Below are positions 4,933 to 53,190 of a stretch of DNA of 64,000 nt, piece by piece (position 1 is the first letter of the stretch; every line of letters starts with the position of its first letter). The notes under the pieces were generated by a model. The model was not told where the DNA came from, made no database searches, and was given only the letters and a program-made list of their open reading frames with translations. This DNA is from Anastrepha obliqua (Eukaryota; Arthropoda; Insecta; Diptera; Tephritidae), in assembly GCF_027943255.1 (NCBI RefSeq), contig NC_072896.1:310001-374000 (forward strand), written 5' to 3'. The translations under genes and the position numbers were made by a program.

Positions 4933-7145
4933 TCTTCTTCTTCTTCTTAATTGGCGCGATAACCGCTTACGCGATTTTGGCCGAGCTTAATAAAGCGCGC
5001 CAGTCGTTTCTTTCTCGTGCTAACCGGCGCCAATTGGACACACCAAGTGAAGCCAAGTCCTTCTCCACCTGATCTTTCCAACGCAGAGGAAGCCTTCCTC
5101 TTCCTCTGCTACCACCAGCTGGTACCGCATCGAATACTTTCAAAGCCGGAGCGTTTGTATCCATTCGGACGACATGACCCAGCCAACGTAGCCGCTGGAT
5201 CTTTATTCGCTGCGCTATGTCTATGTCGTCGTAAAGCTCATACAGCTCATCGTTCCATCGTCTGCGATATTCGCCGTTGCCAACGTGCAAAGGTCCAAAA
5301 ATTTTACGCAGAATCTTTCTCTCGAACACTCCAAGCGTCGCTTCATCGGATGTTGTCATCGTCCAAGCTTCTGCGCCATACGTCAGGACGGGCATGATGA
5401 GAGTCTTGTAAAGTGTTAGTTTTGTTCGTCGAGAGAGGACTTTACTGCTCAGTTGCCTACTTAGTCCAAAGTAGCACTTGTTGGCAAGAGAGATTCTACG
5501 TTGGATTTCAAGGCTGACATTGTTATAGGTGTTAATGCTGGTTCCCAAATACACGAAGTCTTTTACAACCTCAAAATTATAACTGTCTACAGTGACGTGG
5601 GTGCCGATACGCGAGTGCGCCGACTGTTTGTTTGAAGACAGGAGGTACTTCGTTTTGTCCTCGTTCACCACCAGACCCATTCGCTTTGCCTCTTTATCCA
5701 GTTTGGAGAAGGCAGAACTAACAGCGCGGTTGTTAAGGCCGATGATATCGATATCATCGGCATACGCCAACAATTGTACGCTCTTATAAAATATTGTGCC
5801 TGAGCGATTAAGTTCTGCGGCTCGTACGATGCTCTCCAACATCAGGTTAAAGAAGTCACACGACAGTGAGTCACCCTGTCTGAAACCTCGTTTGGTATCA
5901 AACGGCTCGGAGAGGTCCTTCCCAATTCTGACGGCGCTGCTGGTGTTGAGCAACGTCATCTTACATAGCCGTATTAGTTTTGCGGGGATACCAAATTCAG
6001 ACATAGCGGCATACAGGTAACTCCTTTCTGTACTGTCGAATGCAGCTTTGAAGTCGACGAAAAGATGGTGTGTGTCGATTCTCCTTTCGTGGGTCTTTTC
6101 CAAGATTTGGCGTATTGAGAATATTTGGTCGATGGTAGACTTTCCAGGTCTGAAGCCACACTGATAAGGTCCAATCAGTTGGTTGACGGTGGGCTTCAGC
6201 CTTTCACACAATACGCTCGCTAGAACCTTATAGGCGATATTTAGAAGACTTATCCTGCGGTAATTGGCACAAATTGCAGGATCACCCTTCTTATGGATTG
6301 GGCAGAGCACACTTAAATTCCAATCGGCAGGCATGCTTTCATCCGACCATATTTTGCATAGGAGCTGATGCATGCACCTTACCAGCTCCTCGCCGCCATG
6401 TTTGAATAGCTCAGCCGGGAGTCCGTCGGCGCCCGCGGCTTTGTTGTTCTTTAGGCGCGTTATCGCTATTCTCACCTCGTCATGATCGGGTAACGGAACT
6501 ACAATTCCGTCGTCATCGATTGGGGTATCGGGATCTTCACATTCTCTATGACATGCGCAGCTGTCACTGTTTAACAGGTTCGAGAAGTGTTCCCTCCATA
6601 ATTTAAGATTGCTCTGTACGTCAGTCACCAGATCGCCGTCTTTGTTCTTACAGGAAAACGCCCCGGTCTTAAAACCTTCTGTAAGCCGCCGAACTTTCTG
6701 GTAGAATTTTCGGGCGTTGTTCCTATTGGCCAGCATCTCAAGCTCCTCGCACTCACGTATTTCGGCCTCTCGTTTCTTCTGTCGGATAATACGTCTCTCT
6801 TCCTTTTTCAGCTCTCTGTAGCGATCCCACATGGCTCGCGTTGCGCCCGATCGCAGCGTGGCTCTATAGGCGGCATCTTTTCTTTCTGCGGCAGCATGAC
6901 ACTCCTCGTCGTACCAATTGTTTTTTCGGGCTCGCCGGAATCCGATTTTTTCTTCGGCGGCGGTACGTAGGGAACGAGAAATGTTGCTCCATTGCTCGCG
7001 TATGCCGATTTGTTGGGCAGTGCTTTCGGAGAGCAGGAGTGAGAGTCGAGTGGCGAATCTTCTGGCTGTCTGTTGTGATTGCAGCTTTTCGATGTCGAAC
7101 ATTCTTTGCGTAGGTAGATGCACGTTTTTTGCTGCACATGGAACC
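4933..7145 (-). mobile_element. Internally deleted RTE-clade LINE
   Basis: A minus-strand copy of the same LINE that is full length at 44487-47760. It ends at its 3' side in a (AAG)n tail, read as TTC repeats at 4932-4947. At its 5' side it keeps only about 11 nt of the element's 5' terminus (GGTTCCATGTG) joined directly to sequence equivalent to position 45557 of the full copy, so about 1,057 bp with the 5' UTR and most of the endonuclease domain are missing. The joint lies in a TGTG shared by both sides. A 13-bp target-site duplication flanks the insertion. The high similarity to the full copy and the open frame point to a fairly recent insertion. Confidence 0.95.
4948..4985 (-). promoter_or_regulatory. 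3' terminal hairpin of the deleted RTE copy
   Basis: This is the 38-nt terminal block found at the 3' end of the full LINE and of the long SINE form. It starts CTCGGCCAAA and ends in CGCGCCAATTA before the AAG tail. The hairpin is identical to that of the full LINE (arm AATCGC, loop GTAA, arm GCGGTT), with the stop codon in the loop. A role as the reverse transcriptase recognition site is inferred. Confidence 0.55.
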
Positions 7146-20999: not shown

Positions 21000-21324
21000 T
21001 ATATATATATATATAATTGGTGCGTACACCCTTTTTGGTTGTTTGGCCGAGATCCTCCTCGTATTTGTGGTGTGCGTCTTGATGTTGTTCCACAAATGGA
21101 GGGACCTACAGTTTCAAGCCAACTCCGAACGGCAGATATTTTTATGAGGAGCTTTTTCATGGCAGAAGTACACTCGGAGGTTTGCCATTGCCTGCCGAGG
21201 GGCGACCGCTATTAGAAAAATGTTTTTCTTAATTTTGGTGTTTCACCGAGATTCGAACCGACGTTCTCTCTGTGAATTGCGAATGGTAGTCACGCACCAA
21301 CCCATTCGGCTACGGCGGCCGCCA
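21000..21324 (-). mobile_element. tRNA-headed SINE, long form, complete (copy S2)
   Basis: About 325 bp on the minus strand with a perfect 13-bp target-site duplication. Order from 5' to 3': tRNA-like head (box A TAGCCGAATGGG near 21303-21314, box B GGTTCGAATC at 21259-21250); body with GAAAAAGCTCCTCATAAAAA; a junction at ACTGTA; a second module starting GGTCCCTCCATTTGTGG; the LINE-like 38-nt end at 21051-21014; and an AT-repeat tail. RNA polymerase III transcription is expected for such elements. Mobilisation by the RTE LINE in this window is inferred from the shared end. Confidence 0.93.
21014..21051 (-). promoter_or_regulatory. LINE-like 3' terminal block of SINE S2
   Basis: 38 nt starting CTCGGCCAAA and ending CGCACCAATTA, the same length and boundaries as the LINE 3' end at 47710-47747. 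The middle 16 nt (CAACCAAAAAGGGTGT) pair less well than in the SINE copy at 53140-53177. Confidence 0.7.
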
Positions 21325-21337
21325 ATATGTACCAGTC
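21325..21337. repeat. Target-site duplication, right copy (SINE S2)
   Basis: Second copy of atatgtaccagtc. Confidence 0.9.
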
Positions 21338-44476: not shown

Positions 44477-44486
44477 GTATTGACAG
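44477..44486. repeat. Target-site duplication, left copy (full RTE)
   Basis: gtattgacag, repeated exactly at 47761-47770 directly after the AAG tail. Confidence 0.95.
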
Positions 44487-44734
44487 GAGGATGGTTCCAT
44501 GTGTAGAAGTCCACGCAAGTGGGGAAAGTTACTGATCGCCATTCACTTGGGAATGGCCAGGACGATTCTTCTGCATATGGTTCAAGCAGCTCACAACGGC
44601 CGGGATTAGCCCACGTATCCTCTGGGTAGCTTCCGAACATCCGTTTGGGAGTGAGCTAACGTGAGAAGGCGAAATATTCCAGGATAGCTGGTTGTGCGTT
44701 GGGTTTGGGACCCGCCACTTAAAAATCGCCCCCA

Positions 44735-47728
44735 ATGAAAAGTGTAAAAAAGCCTCGGATGAGACCTCCCTATACTGATGACGACCCCTGCAAACGAACT
44801 AAGGATTATGATTTGAGGGCATGCACCTGGAATGTCCGGTCCCTTAATGGGGAAGGTGCCTCTGCCCGGCTGGTTGATGTCCTCGTGAGAGTAAAGGCTG
44901 ACATCACTGCCATCCAAGAGATGCGATGGACGGGGCAAGGTAAGAAAACCATAGGACCTTGCGACGTCTACTACAGCTGCCATGTAAAGGAGCGCAAATT
45001 CGGTGTCGGATTTGTTGTGGGAGAGAGACTTCGTCGCCAAGTACTGTCGTTCACTCCGGTGGACGAGCGTCTCGCAACAATCCGCATCAAAGCCCGTTTT
45101 TTCAACATATCGCTAATTTGCGCCCACGCCCCGACGGAAGAGAAGGACGATGCGACCAAAGATTCCTTCTATGAGCGCCTGGAACGTTCCTATGAGCGCT
45201 GCCCCCGCCACGACATAAAAGTCGTGCTTGGCGACTTCAACGCCAGGGTGGGCAAGGAGGGAATTTTTGGTCCCACAGTCGGAAAATTCAGCCTGCACAA
45301 CGAAACATCCGGTAACGGACAGAGGCTGATCGACTTCGCCGGGGCCCGAAACATGGTAGTCTGCAGCACCAGATTCCAGCATAAAAAAATACACCAAGCT
45401 ACCTGGCTGTCTCCTGATCGAAAAACGCGAAACCAGATCGATCATGTTGTGATAGATGGAAGACACGCTTCTAGTGTATTAGATGTACGCACGATCCGAG
45501 GACCCAACATCGACTCGGATCATTACCTTGTTGCAGCCAAGCTGCGCACCCGCCTCTGTGCAGCAAAAAACGTACATCTACCTACGCAAAGAATGTTCGA
45601 CATTGAAAAGCTGCAATCACAACAGACAGCCAGAAGATTCGCCACTCGACTCTCACTCCTGCTCTCCGAAAGCACTGCCCAACAAATCGGCATGCGCGAG
45701 CAATGGAGCCACATTTCTCGTTCCCTACGTACCGCCGCCGAAGAAGAAATCGGATTCCGGCGAGCCCGAAAAAACAATTGGTACGACGAGGAATGTCATG
45801 CTGCCGCAGAAAGAAAAGATGCCGCTTATAGAGCCACGCTGCGATCGGGCGCAACGCGAGCCATGTGGGATCGCTACAGAGAGCTGAAAAAGGAAGAGAG
45901 ACGTATTATCCGAAAGAAGAAACGAGAGGCCGAAATACGTGAGTGCGAAGAGCTTGAGATGCTGGCCAACAGGAACAACGCCCGAAAATTCTACCAGAAA
46001 GTTCGGCGGCTTACAGAAGGTTTCAAGACCGGGGCGTTTTCCTGTAAGAACAAAGACGGCGATCTGGTAACTGACGTACAGAGCAATCTTAAATTATGGA
46101 GGGAACACTTCTCGAACCTGTTAAACGGTGACAGCTGCGCATGTCACAGAGAAAGTGAAGATCCCGATACCCCAATCGTTGACGACGGAATTGTCGTTCC
46201 GCTACCCGATCATGACGAGGTGAGAATAGCGATAACGCGGCTAAAGAACAACAAAGCCGCGGGCGCCGACGGACTGCCGGCTGAGCTATTCAAACATGGC
46301 GGCGAGGAGCTGGTAAGGTGCATGCATCAGCTCCTATGCATAATATGGTCGGATGAAAGCATGCCTGCCGATTGGAATTTAAGTGTGCTCTGCCCAATCC
46401 ATAAGAAGGGTGATCCTGCAATTTGTGCCAATTACCGCGGGATAAGTCTTCTAAATATCGCCTATAAGGTTCTAGCGAGCGTATTGTGTGAAAGGCTGAA
46501 GCCCACCGTCAACCAACTGATTGGACCTTATCAGTGTGGCTTCAGACCTGGAAAGTCCACCATCGACCAAATATTCTCAATACGCCAAATCTTGGAAAAG
46601 ACCCATGAAAGGAGAATCGACACACATCATCTTTTCGTCGACTTCAAAGCTGCATTCGACAGTACGGAAAGAAGTTACCTGTATGCCGCGATGTCTGAAT
46701 TTGGTATCCCCGCAAAACTAATACGGCTATGTAAGATGACGTTGCTCAACACCAGCAGCGCCGTCAGAATTGGGAAGGACCTCTCCGAGCCGTTTGATAC
46801 CAAACGAGGTTTCAGACAGGGTGACTCGCTGTCGTGTGACTTCTTTAACCTGATGTTGGAGAGCATCGTACGAGCCGCAGAACTTAATCGCTCAGGCACA
46901 ATATTTTATAAGAGCGTACAATTGTTGGCGTATGCCGATGATATTGACATCATTGGCCTTAACAACCGCGCTGTTAGTTCTGCCTTCTCCAAACTGGATA
47001 AAGAGGCAAAGCGAATGGGTCTGGTGGTGAACGAGGACAAAACGAAGTACCTCCTGTCTTCAAACAAACAGTCCGCGCACTCGCGTATCGGAACCCACGT
47101 CACTGTAGACAGTTATAATTTCGAGGTTGTAAAGGACTTCGTCTATTTAGGAACCAGCATTAACACCGATAACAATGTCAGCCTTGAAATCCAACGTAGA
47201 ATCTCTCTTGCCAACAAGTGCTACTTTGGACTAAGTAGGCAATTGAGTAGTAAAGTCCTCTCTCGACGAACAAAACTAACACTCTACAAGGCTCTCATCA
47301 TGCCCGTCCTAACGTATGGCGCAGAAGCTTGGACGATGACAACATCCGATGAAGCGACGCTTGAAGTGTTCGAGAGAAAGATTCTGCGTAAGATTTTTGG
47401 ACCTTTGCACGTTGGCAACGGCGAATATCGCAGACGATGGAACGATGAGCTGTATGAGCTTTACGACGACATAGACATAGCGCAGCGAATAAAGATCCAG
47501 CGGCTACGTTGGCTGGGTCATGTCGTCCGAATGGATACAAACGCTCCGGCTTTGAAAGTATTCGATGCGATACCAGCTGGTGGTAGCAGAGGAAGAGGGC
47601 GGCCTCCTCTGCGTTGGAAAGATCAGGTGGAGAAGGACTTGGCTTCACTTGGTGTGTCCAACTGGCGCCGGTTAGCACGAGAAAGAAACGACTGGCGTGC
47701 TTTGTTAAACTCGGCCAAAATCGCGTAA
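44735..47728 (+). CDS. RTE-clade LINE polyprotein (endonuclease and reverse transcriptase)
   Basis: 997 residues with no stop or frameshift. Residues about 28-270 form an AP-like endonuclease: TWNVRSLN (N33), QEMRW (E62), GDFNARVG (D167, N169), IDHVVID (D236) and SDHYLV (H263). A basic linker spans about 290-420. The reverse transcriptase spans about 520-800, with GFRPGKSTIDQI near 602, VDFKAAFDS near 635, RQGDSLSC, and the catalytic YADD at 733-736. The C-terminal segment includes RLRWLGHVVRMD near 922. The protein nicks target DNA and copies its RNA there (target-primed reverse transcription). The start at 44735 is the first ATG giving the complete endonuclease; no upstream in-frame extension is needed. 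Full catalytic motifs suggest it could be functional. Confidence 0.96.
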   Translation: MKSVKKPRMRPPYTDDDPCKRTKDYDLRACTWNVRSLNGEGASARLVDVLVRVKADITAIQEMRWTGQGKKTIGPCDVYYSCHVKERKFGVGFVVGERLRRQVLSFTPVDERLATIRIKARFFNISLICAHAPTEEKDDATKDSFYERLERSYERCPRHDIKVVLGDFNARVGKEGIFGPTVGKFSLHNETSGNGQRLIDFAGARNMVVCSTRFQHKKIHQATWLSPDRKTRNQIDHVVIDGRHASSVLDVRTIRGPNIDSDHYLVAAKLRTRLCAAKNVHLPTQRMFDIEKLQSQQTARRFATRLSLLLSESTAQQIGMREQWSHISRSLRTAAEEEIGFRRARKNNWYDEECHAAAERKDAAYRATLRSGATRAMWDRYRELKKEERRIIRKKKREAEIRECEELEMLANRNNARKFYQKVRRLTEGFKTGAFSCKNKDGDLVTDVQSNLKLWREHFSNLLNGDSCACHRESEDPDTPIVDDGIVVPLPDHDEVRIAITRLKNNKAAGADGLPAELFKHGGEELVRCMHQLLCIIWSDESMPADWNLSVLCPIHKKGDPAICANYRGISLLNIAYKVLASVLCERLKPTVNQLIGPYQCGFRPGKSTIDQIFSIRQILEKTHERRIDTHHLFVDFKAAFDSTERSYLYAAMSEFGIPAKLIRLCKMTLLNTSSAVRIGKDLSEPFDTKRGFRQGDSLSCDFFNLMLESIVRAAELNRSGTIFYKSVQLLAYADDIDIIGLNNRAVSSAFSKLDKEAKRMGLVVNEDKTKYLLSSNKQSAHSRIGTHVTVDSYNFEVVKDFVYLGTSINTDNNVSLEIQRRISLANKCYFGLSRQLSSKVLSRRTKLTLYKALIMPVLTYGAEAWTMTTSDEATLEVFERKILRKIFGPLHVGNGEYRRRWNDELYELYDDIDIAQRIKIQRLRWLGHVVRMDTNAPALKVFDAIPAGGSRGRGRPPLRWKDQVEKDLASLGVSNWRRLARERNDWRALLNSAKIA

Positions 47729-47747
47729 GCGGTTCTAGCGCCAATTA
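47710..47747 (+). promoter_or_regulatory. 3' terminal hairpin shared with the SINE
   Basis: 38 nt: CTCGGCCAAA, a 16-nt variable centre, TAGCGCCAATTA. The centre with its flanks folds as AATCGC, loop GTAA, GCGGTT (six pairs, one G-U), and the stop codon TAA lies in the loop. The outer parts are identical in the SINE copy at 53140-53177. Such shared 3' ends are how SINEs are known to recruit a partner LINE reverse transcriptase; the function here is inferred. Confidence 0.65.
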
Positions 47748-47760
47748 AGAAGAAGAAGAA

Positions 47761-47770
47761 GTATTGACAG
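47761..47770. repeat. Target-site duplication, right copy (full RTE)
   Basis: Second copy of gtattgacag. Confidence 0.95.
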
Positions 47771-53051: not shown

Positions 53052-53190
53052 TACGTCCTTCCATTCGTAGAACAACGTCAAGACGCACATTTAGCAAAGA
53101 GTATCAGCATCAGACGCACACCATAAATTGGAAGAGGAGCTCGGCCAAACACCCGACAAGGGTGTTAGCGCCAATTATATGTATTTACAA
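53052..53190 (+). mobile_element. SINE tail module, 5'-truncated (copy S4)
   Basis: It starts gtacgtccttccattcgt, matching the second module of the long SINE immediately after ACTGTA, and runs through acaacgtcaagacgcac and ggagctcggccaaac to gcgccaattatatgtattt. A 30-bp internal segment duplicates part of cagacgcacac. The tRNA head and body are absent. Confidence 0.85.
53140..53177 (+). promoter_or_regulatory. LINE-like 3' terminal hairpin of SINE S4
   Basis: 38 nt with CTCGGCCAAA at the start and TAGCGCCAATTA at the end, both identical to the LINE. The centre forms AACACCC, loop GACAA, GGGTGTT: seven pairs, different in sequence from the LINE stem but at the same place. Confidence 0.7.

Follow-up and report, generated by a model that had tools for sequence, protein, structure and literature searches.

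The window analysed here is a 64,000-nt stretch of contig NC_072896.1 of the tephritid fly Anastrepha obliqua (positions 310,001 to 374,000, forward strand; all coordinates below are those of the window). It contains a full-length long interspersed nuclear element (LINE), probably of RTE type, and copies of a short interspersed nuclear element (SINE) family with a putatively tRNA-like head, and the two families carry related 38-nt 3' ends. The LINE occupies positions 44487 to 47760 of the plus strand, including a short (AAG)n tail (47748 to 47760) upstream of the downstream duplication. It is flanked by a 10-bp target site duplication, GTATTGACAG, at 44477–44486 and 47761–47770, and near-identical copies are found genome-wide; the window copy is apparently a recent insertion. 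Its single open reading frame (ORF; 44735 to 47728, plus strand) specifies 997 amino acids, with an EEP endonuclease domain (PF03372, residues 30–263) followed by a reverse transcriptase (PF00078, residues 555–798), and closes with a stop codon at 47726–47728, 19 nt before the tail. This layout (one ORF with an apurinic/apyrimidinic, i.e., APE-type, endonuclease ahead of the reverse transcriptase, a short 3' untranslated region and a microsatellite tail) is that of RTE elements, and the insertion sites of the LINE carry the run-of-T-plus-TA (Tn-TA) signature of the clade as described in the consulted part of PMC13295347. On the basis of these features, the LINE is probably of RTE type.

In the 836-Mb genome, 59,840 first-look candidates for LINE copies were obtained, of which the best 128 were scored, all displayed at 99–100%; none of these 128 has a stop codon within the 308 C-terminal residues searched, so that an assay of the LINE protein appears realistic. 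A protein search with the C-terminal 358 residues returned an unnamed best match (99%), and named matches among the nearest came from Zeugodacus cucurbitae (84% identity, 99% query coverage) and Bactrocera dorsalis (81% identity, 65% query coverage). Labels attached to close relatives in the database, “LINE-1 retrotransposable element ORF2 protein” among them, do not denote clades. The 3' end of a second LINE copy of an older type lies at 4948–4985 on the minus strand; it ends in ..ATCGCGCCAATTA, bears an (AAG)n tail and has the same hairpin as the window LINE.

Among the SINE copies of the window, the one at 21014–21323 (minus strand) is a full-length member of the main family, 97.4% identical to the family consensus when counted from the CCGCCG start, with its 38-nt end at 21051–21014, a (TA)n tail at 21000–21013 and a flanking 13-bp duplication, GACTGGTACATAT, at 21337–21325 and 20999–20987. 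The second 38-nt end, at 53140–53177 on the plus strand, belongs to an old, diverged copy. The head of the SINE is called tRNA-like on account of the box-like segments TAGCCGAATGG and GGTTCGAATC, which by eye resemble RNA polymerase III A and B box motifs; for the 21-kb copy, ARAGORN gave no match and Rfam none up to E 1. The family consensus was derived from 15 copies, mostly chosen for near-consensus ends, which are 90–99% identical to it (6 of 20 loci, having no recognisable 5' head, were excluded), while three old copies reach 81–88%.

The final 38 nt of the LINE (47710–47747, plus strand; the first 19 nt lie within the ORF, stop codon included) and of the 53-kb SINE copy are identical at 29 of 38 positions, namely the first 10, 7 of the middle 16 and the last 12. 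A first-pass annotation of this DNA, made from the sequence alone, had described the two blocks with their positions, their equal lengths, the ten shared first letters, the seven middle matches and a hairpin in each, all of which are present in the sequence. It had also listed twelve shared last letters for the 53-kb copy, which holds for that copy and does not extend to the family. The exact pattern CTCGGCCAAACAC-N6-14-TTAGCGCCAATTATA has six matches in the genome, the 53-kb copy included, and the motif TAGCGCC occurs in none of the 100 SINE ends listed from a search blind to the hairpin; the TTAGCGCC ending of the 53-kb copy is, therefore, a rare variant, and the 12-nt identity is not a family trait. 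The family end of the SINE is CTCGGCCAAACACCCAAAAAGGGTGTACGCGCCAATTA, whose final 11 letters (..CGCGCCAATTA) are those of the older LINE type (..ATCGCGCCAATTA), including the window copy at 4985–4948.

That the shared end belongs to both families, rather than to single copies, is evident from genome-wide patterns. The hairpin-blind SINE pattern, in which the body and the final CCAATTATATA alone were specified, has 3640 matches (1820 per strand as reported). Among the 100 of these that were listed and analysed, all within the first 29 Mb of one contig, 87 ends are in register, 13 are exact copies of the consensus, GCGCCAATTA closes 84 (its final CCAATTATATA being fixed by the pattern) and CTCGGCCAAA is unaltered in 61. 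The pattern CTCGGCCAAA-N10-20-TAGCGCCAATTA has 1037 matches, of which three among roughly 100 listed are SINE-type by eye; for both patterns, the reversed control gave none. The family 3' ends of LINE and SINE are, hence, related in register at the very 3' end, and the flanks are the invariant part of the block across both. The first-pass annotation had proposed to look for the shared end in the SINE consensus, and there it is indeed found.

The insertion sites provide independent support. Duplications of at least 7 bp that were not mere tail were accepted; they were sought in 46 LINE copies (six further ones, in which no 5' end could be located or it did not coincide with the element's start, were excluded, as were copies extending 5' beyond the fetched stretch) and in 79 SINE copies (one more was dropped), all but the window's from contig C1. 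Usable duplications were found in 31 of the 46 LINE and 35 of the 79 SINE copies; looser rules gave some further sites, e.g., L045 and L107, which the final rule dropped. At position -11, the strongest position and chosen as such after inspection, T is present in 27/31 LINE sites (p 1.7e-10) and 27/35 SINE sites (p 3e-8), against a background of 0.31. The LINE counts of 31 and 27 both include one poly-T match of doubtful value (L019), and the SINE loci L048 and L079 are probably one event, the count being 26/34 when L048 is left out. The LINE sites further have T at -12 (21/31), G or C at -2 (24/31), T at -1 (25/31) and A at +1 (25/31), while the SINE sites have G or C at -1 (28/35), T at +1 (24/35) and A at +2 (27/35). 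The tail's own TA makes the SINE boundary ambiguous and biases -1 against A, leaving T at -11 unaffected; with A excluded, G or C is still found at -1 in 28 of 34 sites (p 6e-4).

At the 31 LINE sites, duplications begin with A (25), G (5) or T (1), and at 34 SINE sites with T (23), A (9), C (1) or G (1); their median lengths are 11 bp and 9 bp, respectively. As a control, T occupies -11 at 31–34% of the 3530 (G/C)TA steps within the window, and 15% of these steps have a TTT in the 7-nt stretch upstream, compared with 16/31 LINE and 15/34 SINE insertion sites. The upstream profiles of LINE and SINE correlate best at shift 0 (r 0.78, versus 0.71 at +1 and 0.64 at -1), and 2000 position shuffles of the profiles reached a maximum of 0.72 with a mean of 0.42. 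LINE and SINE, thus, share a target signature, and the sites support a partnership independently of the 3' ends. Two further observations concern individual loci: at L003 and L004, a LINE insertion with an unusually long, 20-bp duplication lies near another LINE copy in opposite orientation, and at L011, the 3' end of a LINE copy is collapsed and a SINE has inserted directly behind it.

We interpret the RTE-type LINE and the SINE as a partner pair in which the LINE's single protein copies both RNAs, a reading to which we assign a probability of roughly 70%. In the proposed mechanism, the protein would bind each of the two RNAs at its 3' end by way of the conserved flanks CTCGGCCAA and GCGCCAATTA, paired as an outer helix, while an inner hairpin would be needed for its shape more than for its sequence. 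The endonuclease would open the DNA at a G/C-TA step about 11 nt downstream of a short T-run; the site is common to both families, and the nick itself is deduced from the duplications. The tail repeat would then pair with the target, by which the observed shift might be explained: the (AAG)n-tailed LINE is joined at T|A and the (TA)n-tailed SINE at |TA, where one base of the SINE joint is ambiguous because the tail, too, is TA. Reverse transcription would finally copy the RNA, leaving duplications of the lengths found.

As to structure, the inner hairpin of the LINE (47719–47734, plus strand) consists of AATCGC and GCGGTT around a GTAA loop (47725–47728), and that of the 53-kb SINE copy of ACACCC and GGGTGT around GACAA, with one further A-T pair. 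Both LINE and SINE ends also form an outer GGCC/GCGCC helix in the conserved flanks, which was absent from the first-pass annotation; in the LINE, it spans 47713–47742 (plus strand) and pairs GGCC (47713–47716) with G 47738 and GCC 47740–47742. A consensus fold of four ends retains the outer and the inner helices. Whether the inner hairpins agree for a reason is less certain, and it is quite possible, although doubtful on balance, that they do so by chance, with only the flanks inherited and selected and the middle serving as a free spacer. This explanation bears on the structural claim alone and can hold whether the SINE has the present LINE as its partner or another driver. It fits the LINE fold, which by itself is ordinary (z -1.3 to -1.6; 12–21 of 200 shuffles are equally good) and for which a stem of that length anywhere in the block has a chance of 0.12–0.16. 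The lack of covariation among SINE copies, described below, is likewise in line with it. The SINE fold, on the other hand, is unusual (53-kb copy: z -4.7, 0/200 shuffles; family consensus: z -3.7, 1/200), and the corresponding chance of a stem anywhere in the 53-kb block is 0.013–0.038. For a hairpin of at least six pairs at that very place, with place and length fixed after the ends had been inspected, background composition gives a chance of about 0.018 per element, and shuffling of each element's own middle letters gives 4e-5 for the SINE and 0.027 for the LINE. Likewise difficult to reconcile with a free spacer are the length of exactly 38 nt kept in both families and the nesting of the two helices.

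The first-pass annotation had claimed that the hairpin is kept by compensating changes. Between the LINE and the SINE family, pairs 1, 4 and 6 of the inner stem are unchanged and pairs 2, 3 and 5 are changed on both sides and still paired, so that three of six pairs differ without any being broken; to this extent, the claim is moderately supported. The covariation test that had been proposed, with a null result worded in advance as refuting, yielded nothing for the 87 in-register SINE ends, in which 452 of 522 cells are paired against 449.0 in shuffles (P 0.15; P 0.61 without three copies with an AACAG loop). We judge this test uninformative because inserted copies are not under structural selection, and the case for selected structure rests on the comparison of LINE and SINE, which is moderate rather than strong. 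Of the two SINE copies of the window, each has the 38-nt block, and the hairpin of the 21-kb copy has decayed and does not fold (z 0.18). A further claim, that the enzyme recognises a small hairpin, is moderately supported; given that the flanks are invariant, recognition of the flanks or the outer helix is at least as likely, and an inner hairpin that matters by shape only is plausible and unproven.

Some variants were seen among individual ends. In the AACAG-loop SINE variant (L059–L061; 3 of the 87 in-register copies), stem pair 6 is doubly changed, from C-G to T-A, beside a broken pair 5, a combination that sits well with a hairpin of no consequence. Three LINE copies (L193, L194 and L195) have a 3' hairpin shortened by deletion, with AAG tails and duplication-like flanks present. 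Such hairpin-less ends were considered as a counter-example to the need for a hairpin and set aside: L193 and L194, with identical deleted ends, are 99.2% alike over 1696 columns and represent one insertion in a duplicated segment, and the third is a single case.

The alternative that excludes the partner pair is that another RTE LINE, related to the present one and either extinct or missed, drove the SINE; its own end would have carried the ACACCC/GGGTGT hairpin and been followed by a (TA)n tail, and the window LINE would be its cousin. We consider this unlikely, although part of the evidence points that way. Its trace was sought with exact patterns in the 836 Mb, a type of search that an old, decayed family would escape. 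The conserved LINE codons combined with a SINE-type end gave two matches, both SINE by their flanking letters. A SINE-type end with a non-SINE flank gave 16 matches, of which 12 were inspected: eight lie behind SINE sequence and four in other contexts (L182, L184, L188 and L189), none of them at a LINE 3' end. Upstream of the end at L188, a 25-nt, 88% match to the LINE interior was taken as chance. At L182, L184 and L189, the insertion seems to comprise nothing but the 38-nt SINE block followed by a TA tail, and at L189 a duplication is clearly visible by eye; the pattern that retrieved them itself selects for a break at this point, and no boundary is claimed from them.

Several points weigh against the partner pair, and some of them would suit a cousin LINE better. 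Tail and hairpin types are unmixed: by exact pattern, neither SINE bodies with an AAG tail nor LINE hairpins with a TA tail were found, and a SINE-type hairpin was seen by eye in none of the 69 AAG-tailed ends that carry a letter other than A at position 11 of the block, so that no copy seen shows direct cross-use. The inner stems and loops differ between LINE and SINE (GUAA versus AAAAA), the hairpin middle agreeing at only 7 of 16 positions, and in ZfL2 elements, the loop decides protein binding (PMC4176376, as far as consulted). The LINE burst may be younger than the SINE, given that SINE copies are 90–99% identical to their consensus and LINE copies 96–100% to the window LINE, the latter being a biased pick fetched as best protein matches. 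No usable duplication was obtained for 15/46 LINE and 44/79 SINE copies. The site survey covered the RTE LINE and the SINE, and the actual driver could be a related RTE enzyme that prefers the same sites. Finally, in a BLAST comparison of the SINE consensus with the LINE, the two blocks align end to end at 71% with an E value of 1.5, ranking behind a chance-like 20-nt match with E 0.42; this score is not significant, and the case, therefore, rests on the 3'-end register and on the repetition at family level. The split in tails does not speak against a shared enzyme, since the tails of the Bov-B/Sauria pair differ, too, and the LINE present in the genome has the same target signature as the SINE. 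With the shared end in the SINE consensus, no closer LINE end found by exact patterns and a common target signature, the first-pass proposal that the RTE enzyme carries the SINE is well supported by sequence evidence, if not proven. That the shared end is a mere chance resemblance, for which the BLAST score and the confinement of the 12-nt identity to a few copies might be quoted, is extremely improbable in view of about 20 flank letters that are identical and keep one register in the 38-nt termini of families having at least 1037 and at least 3640 pattern matches, the empty reversed-pattern controls and the common insertion signature.

A peculiarity of the LINE is that its reading frame continues through the block (TCG GCC AAA ATC GCG TAA) and that the TAA stop codon at 47726–47728 sits within the GTAA hairpin loop, which we take to be GNRA-like. 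The end of translation and the end of the template, hence, overlap in this element. The protein tails of three close relatives are similar (..NSAKIA, ..DSAITG and ..NSAIIV), while other relatives differ, and the LINE flank may be partly under coding constraint as well; nothing points to such a constraint on the SINE. It is conceivable, though distinctly improbable as a whole, that the RTE protein reads the outer helix together with the flanks, that the inner hairpin counts by shape alone and has been refilled with unrelated letters, and that translation and template capture conflict on the LINE RNA, the SINE being exempt. If so, since the hairpin includes the final sense codons and the stop, a ribosome terminating there would have to unfold the LINE structure on which the enzyme depends; translation and template capture would be mutually exclusive on one RNA, and the untranslated SINE RNA would compete well as a template.

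Partner pairs with common 3' ends are known from other animals, as the first-pass annotation had noted, and RTE-partnered LINE/SINE pairs are common (PMC3747384; PMC7245038); these and the following comparisons refer to the consulted parts of the cited sources. The closest parallel is the Bov-B LINE (RTE clade) with the Sauria SINE of reptiles, where the 3' end is likewise common, the tail repeats of LINE and SINE differ, a T-run lies about 10 nt upstream, and the published T-run-TA signature includes LINE duplications that begin with A and SINE duplications that begin with T (PMC13295347). The fly pair differs in sequence and host, in its (AAG)n and (TA)n tails as opposed to (CAA)n and (ACCTTT)n, and in that its LINE and SINE have unlike inner hairpins as well. 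The HaSE1/HaRTE1.1 pair of the moth Helicoverpa armigera is likewise an insect pair, in which a tRNA-derived SINE carries an RTE LINE's 3' tail; the moth LINE, unlike that of the fly, ends in TGA repeats, the main text does not contain the word “stem-loop”, and no Tn-TA site was seen in the description of the pair (PMC3272025).

For the structural aspect, the plant L1-clade element LINE1-1_ZM with ZmSINE2/3 of maize and sorghum is instructive, as the common 3' end of about 50 nt forms a hairpin with fixed letters in flank and loop and with compensatory changes in the stem (PMC3747384). In the fly pair, by contrast, LINE and SINE have different loops and a conserved outer helix. ZfL2-1, ZfL2-2 and UnaL2, of the L2 clade, have a 3' stem-loop that is common with the partner SINE in stringent types and is recognised by the LINE protein, with the loop sequence deciding binding in ZfL2-2 (PMC4176376); the fly pair is known from its sequence. 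Among dipterans, the Gecko SINE of Aedes aegypti shares its 3' end with a LINE of the I clade (PMC3747384), not RTE as here. No report of an RTE/SINE pair in flies was found in searches of the open-licence PMC literature, which is weak evidence of absence. RTE LINE/SINE pairs and compensatory stems in shared ends being known already, the fly pair is probably a further case.

What the fly pair would add is a particular distribution of fixed and variable parts. Its flanks and outer helix are fixed, and its inner stem, loop and tail differ, which is the reverse of the situation in ZfL2 (PMC4176376, as far as consulted). Furthermore, the Tn-TA signature, with a tail-linked shift of one base between LINE and SINE, is extended to an insect pair with other tail repeats. 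The pair, thus, constitutes a natural experiment in which fixed flanks stand against a differing stem, loop and tail, and by which it becomes testable which part of the RNA an RTE enzyme reads.

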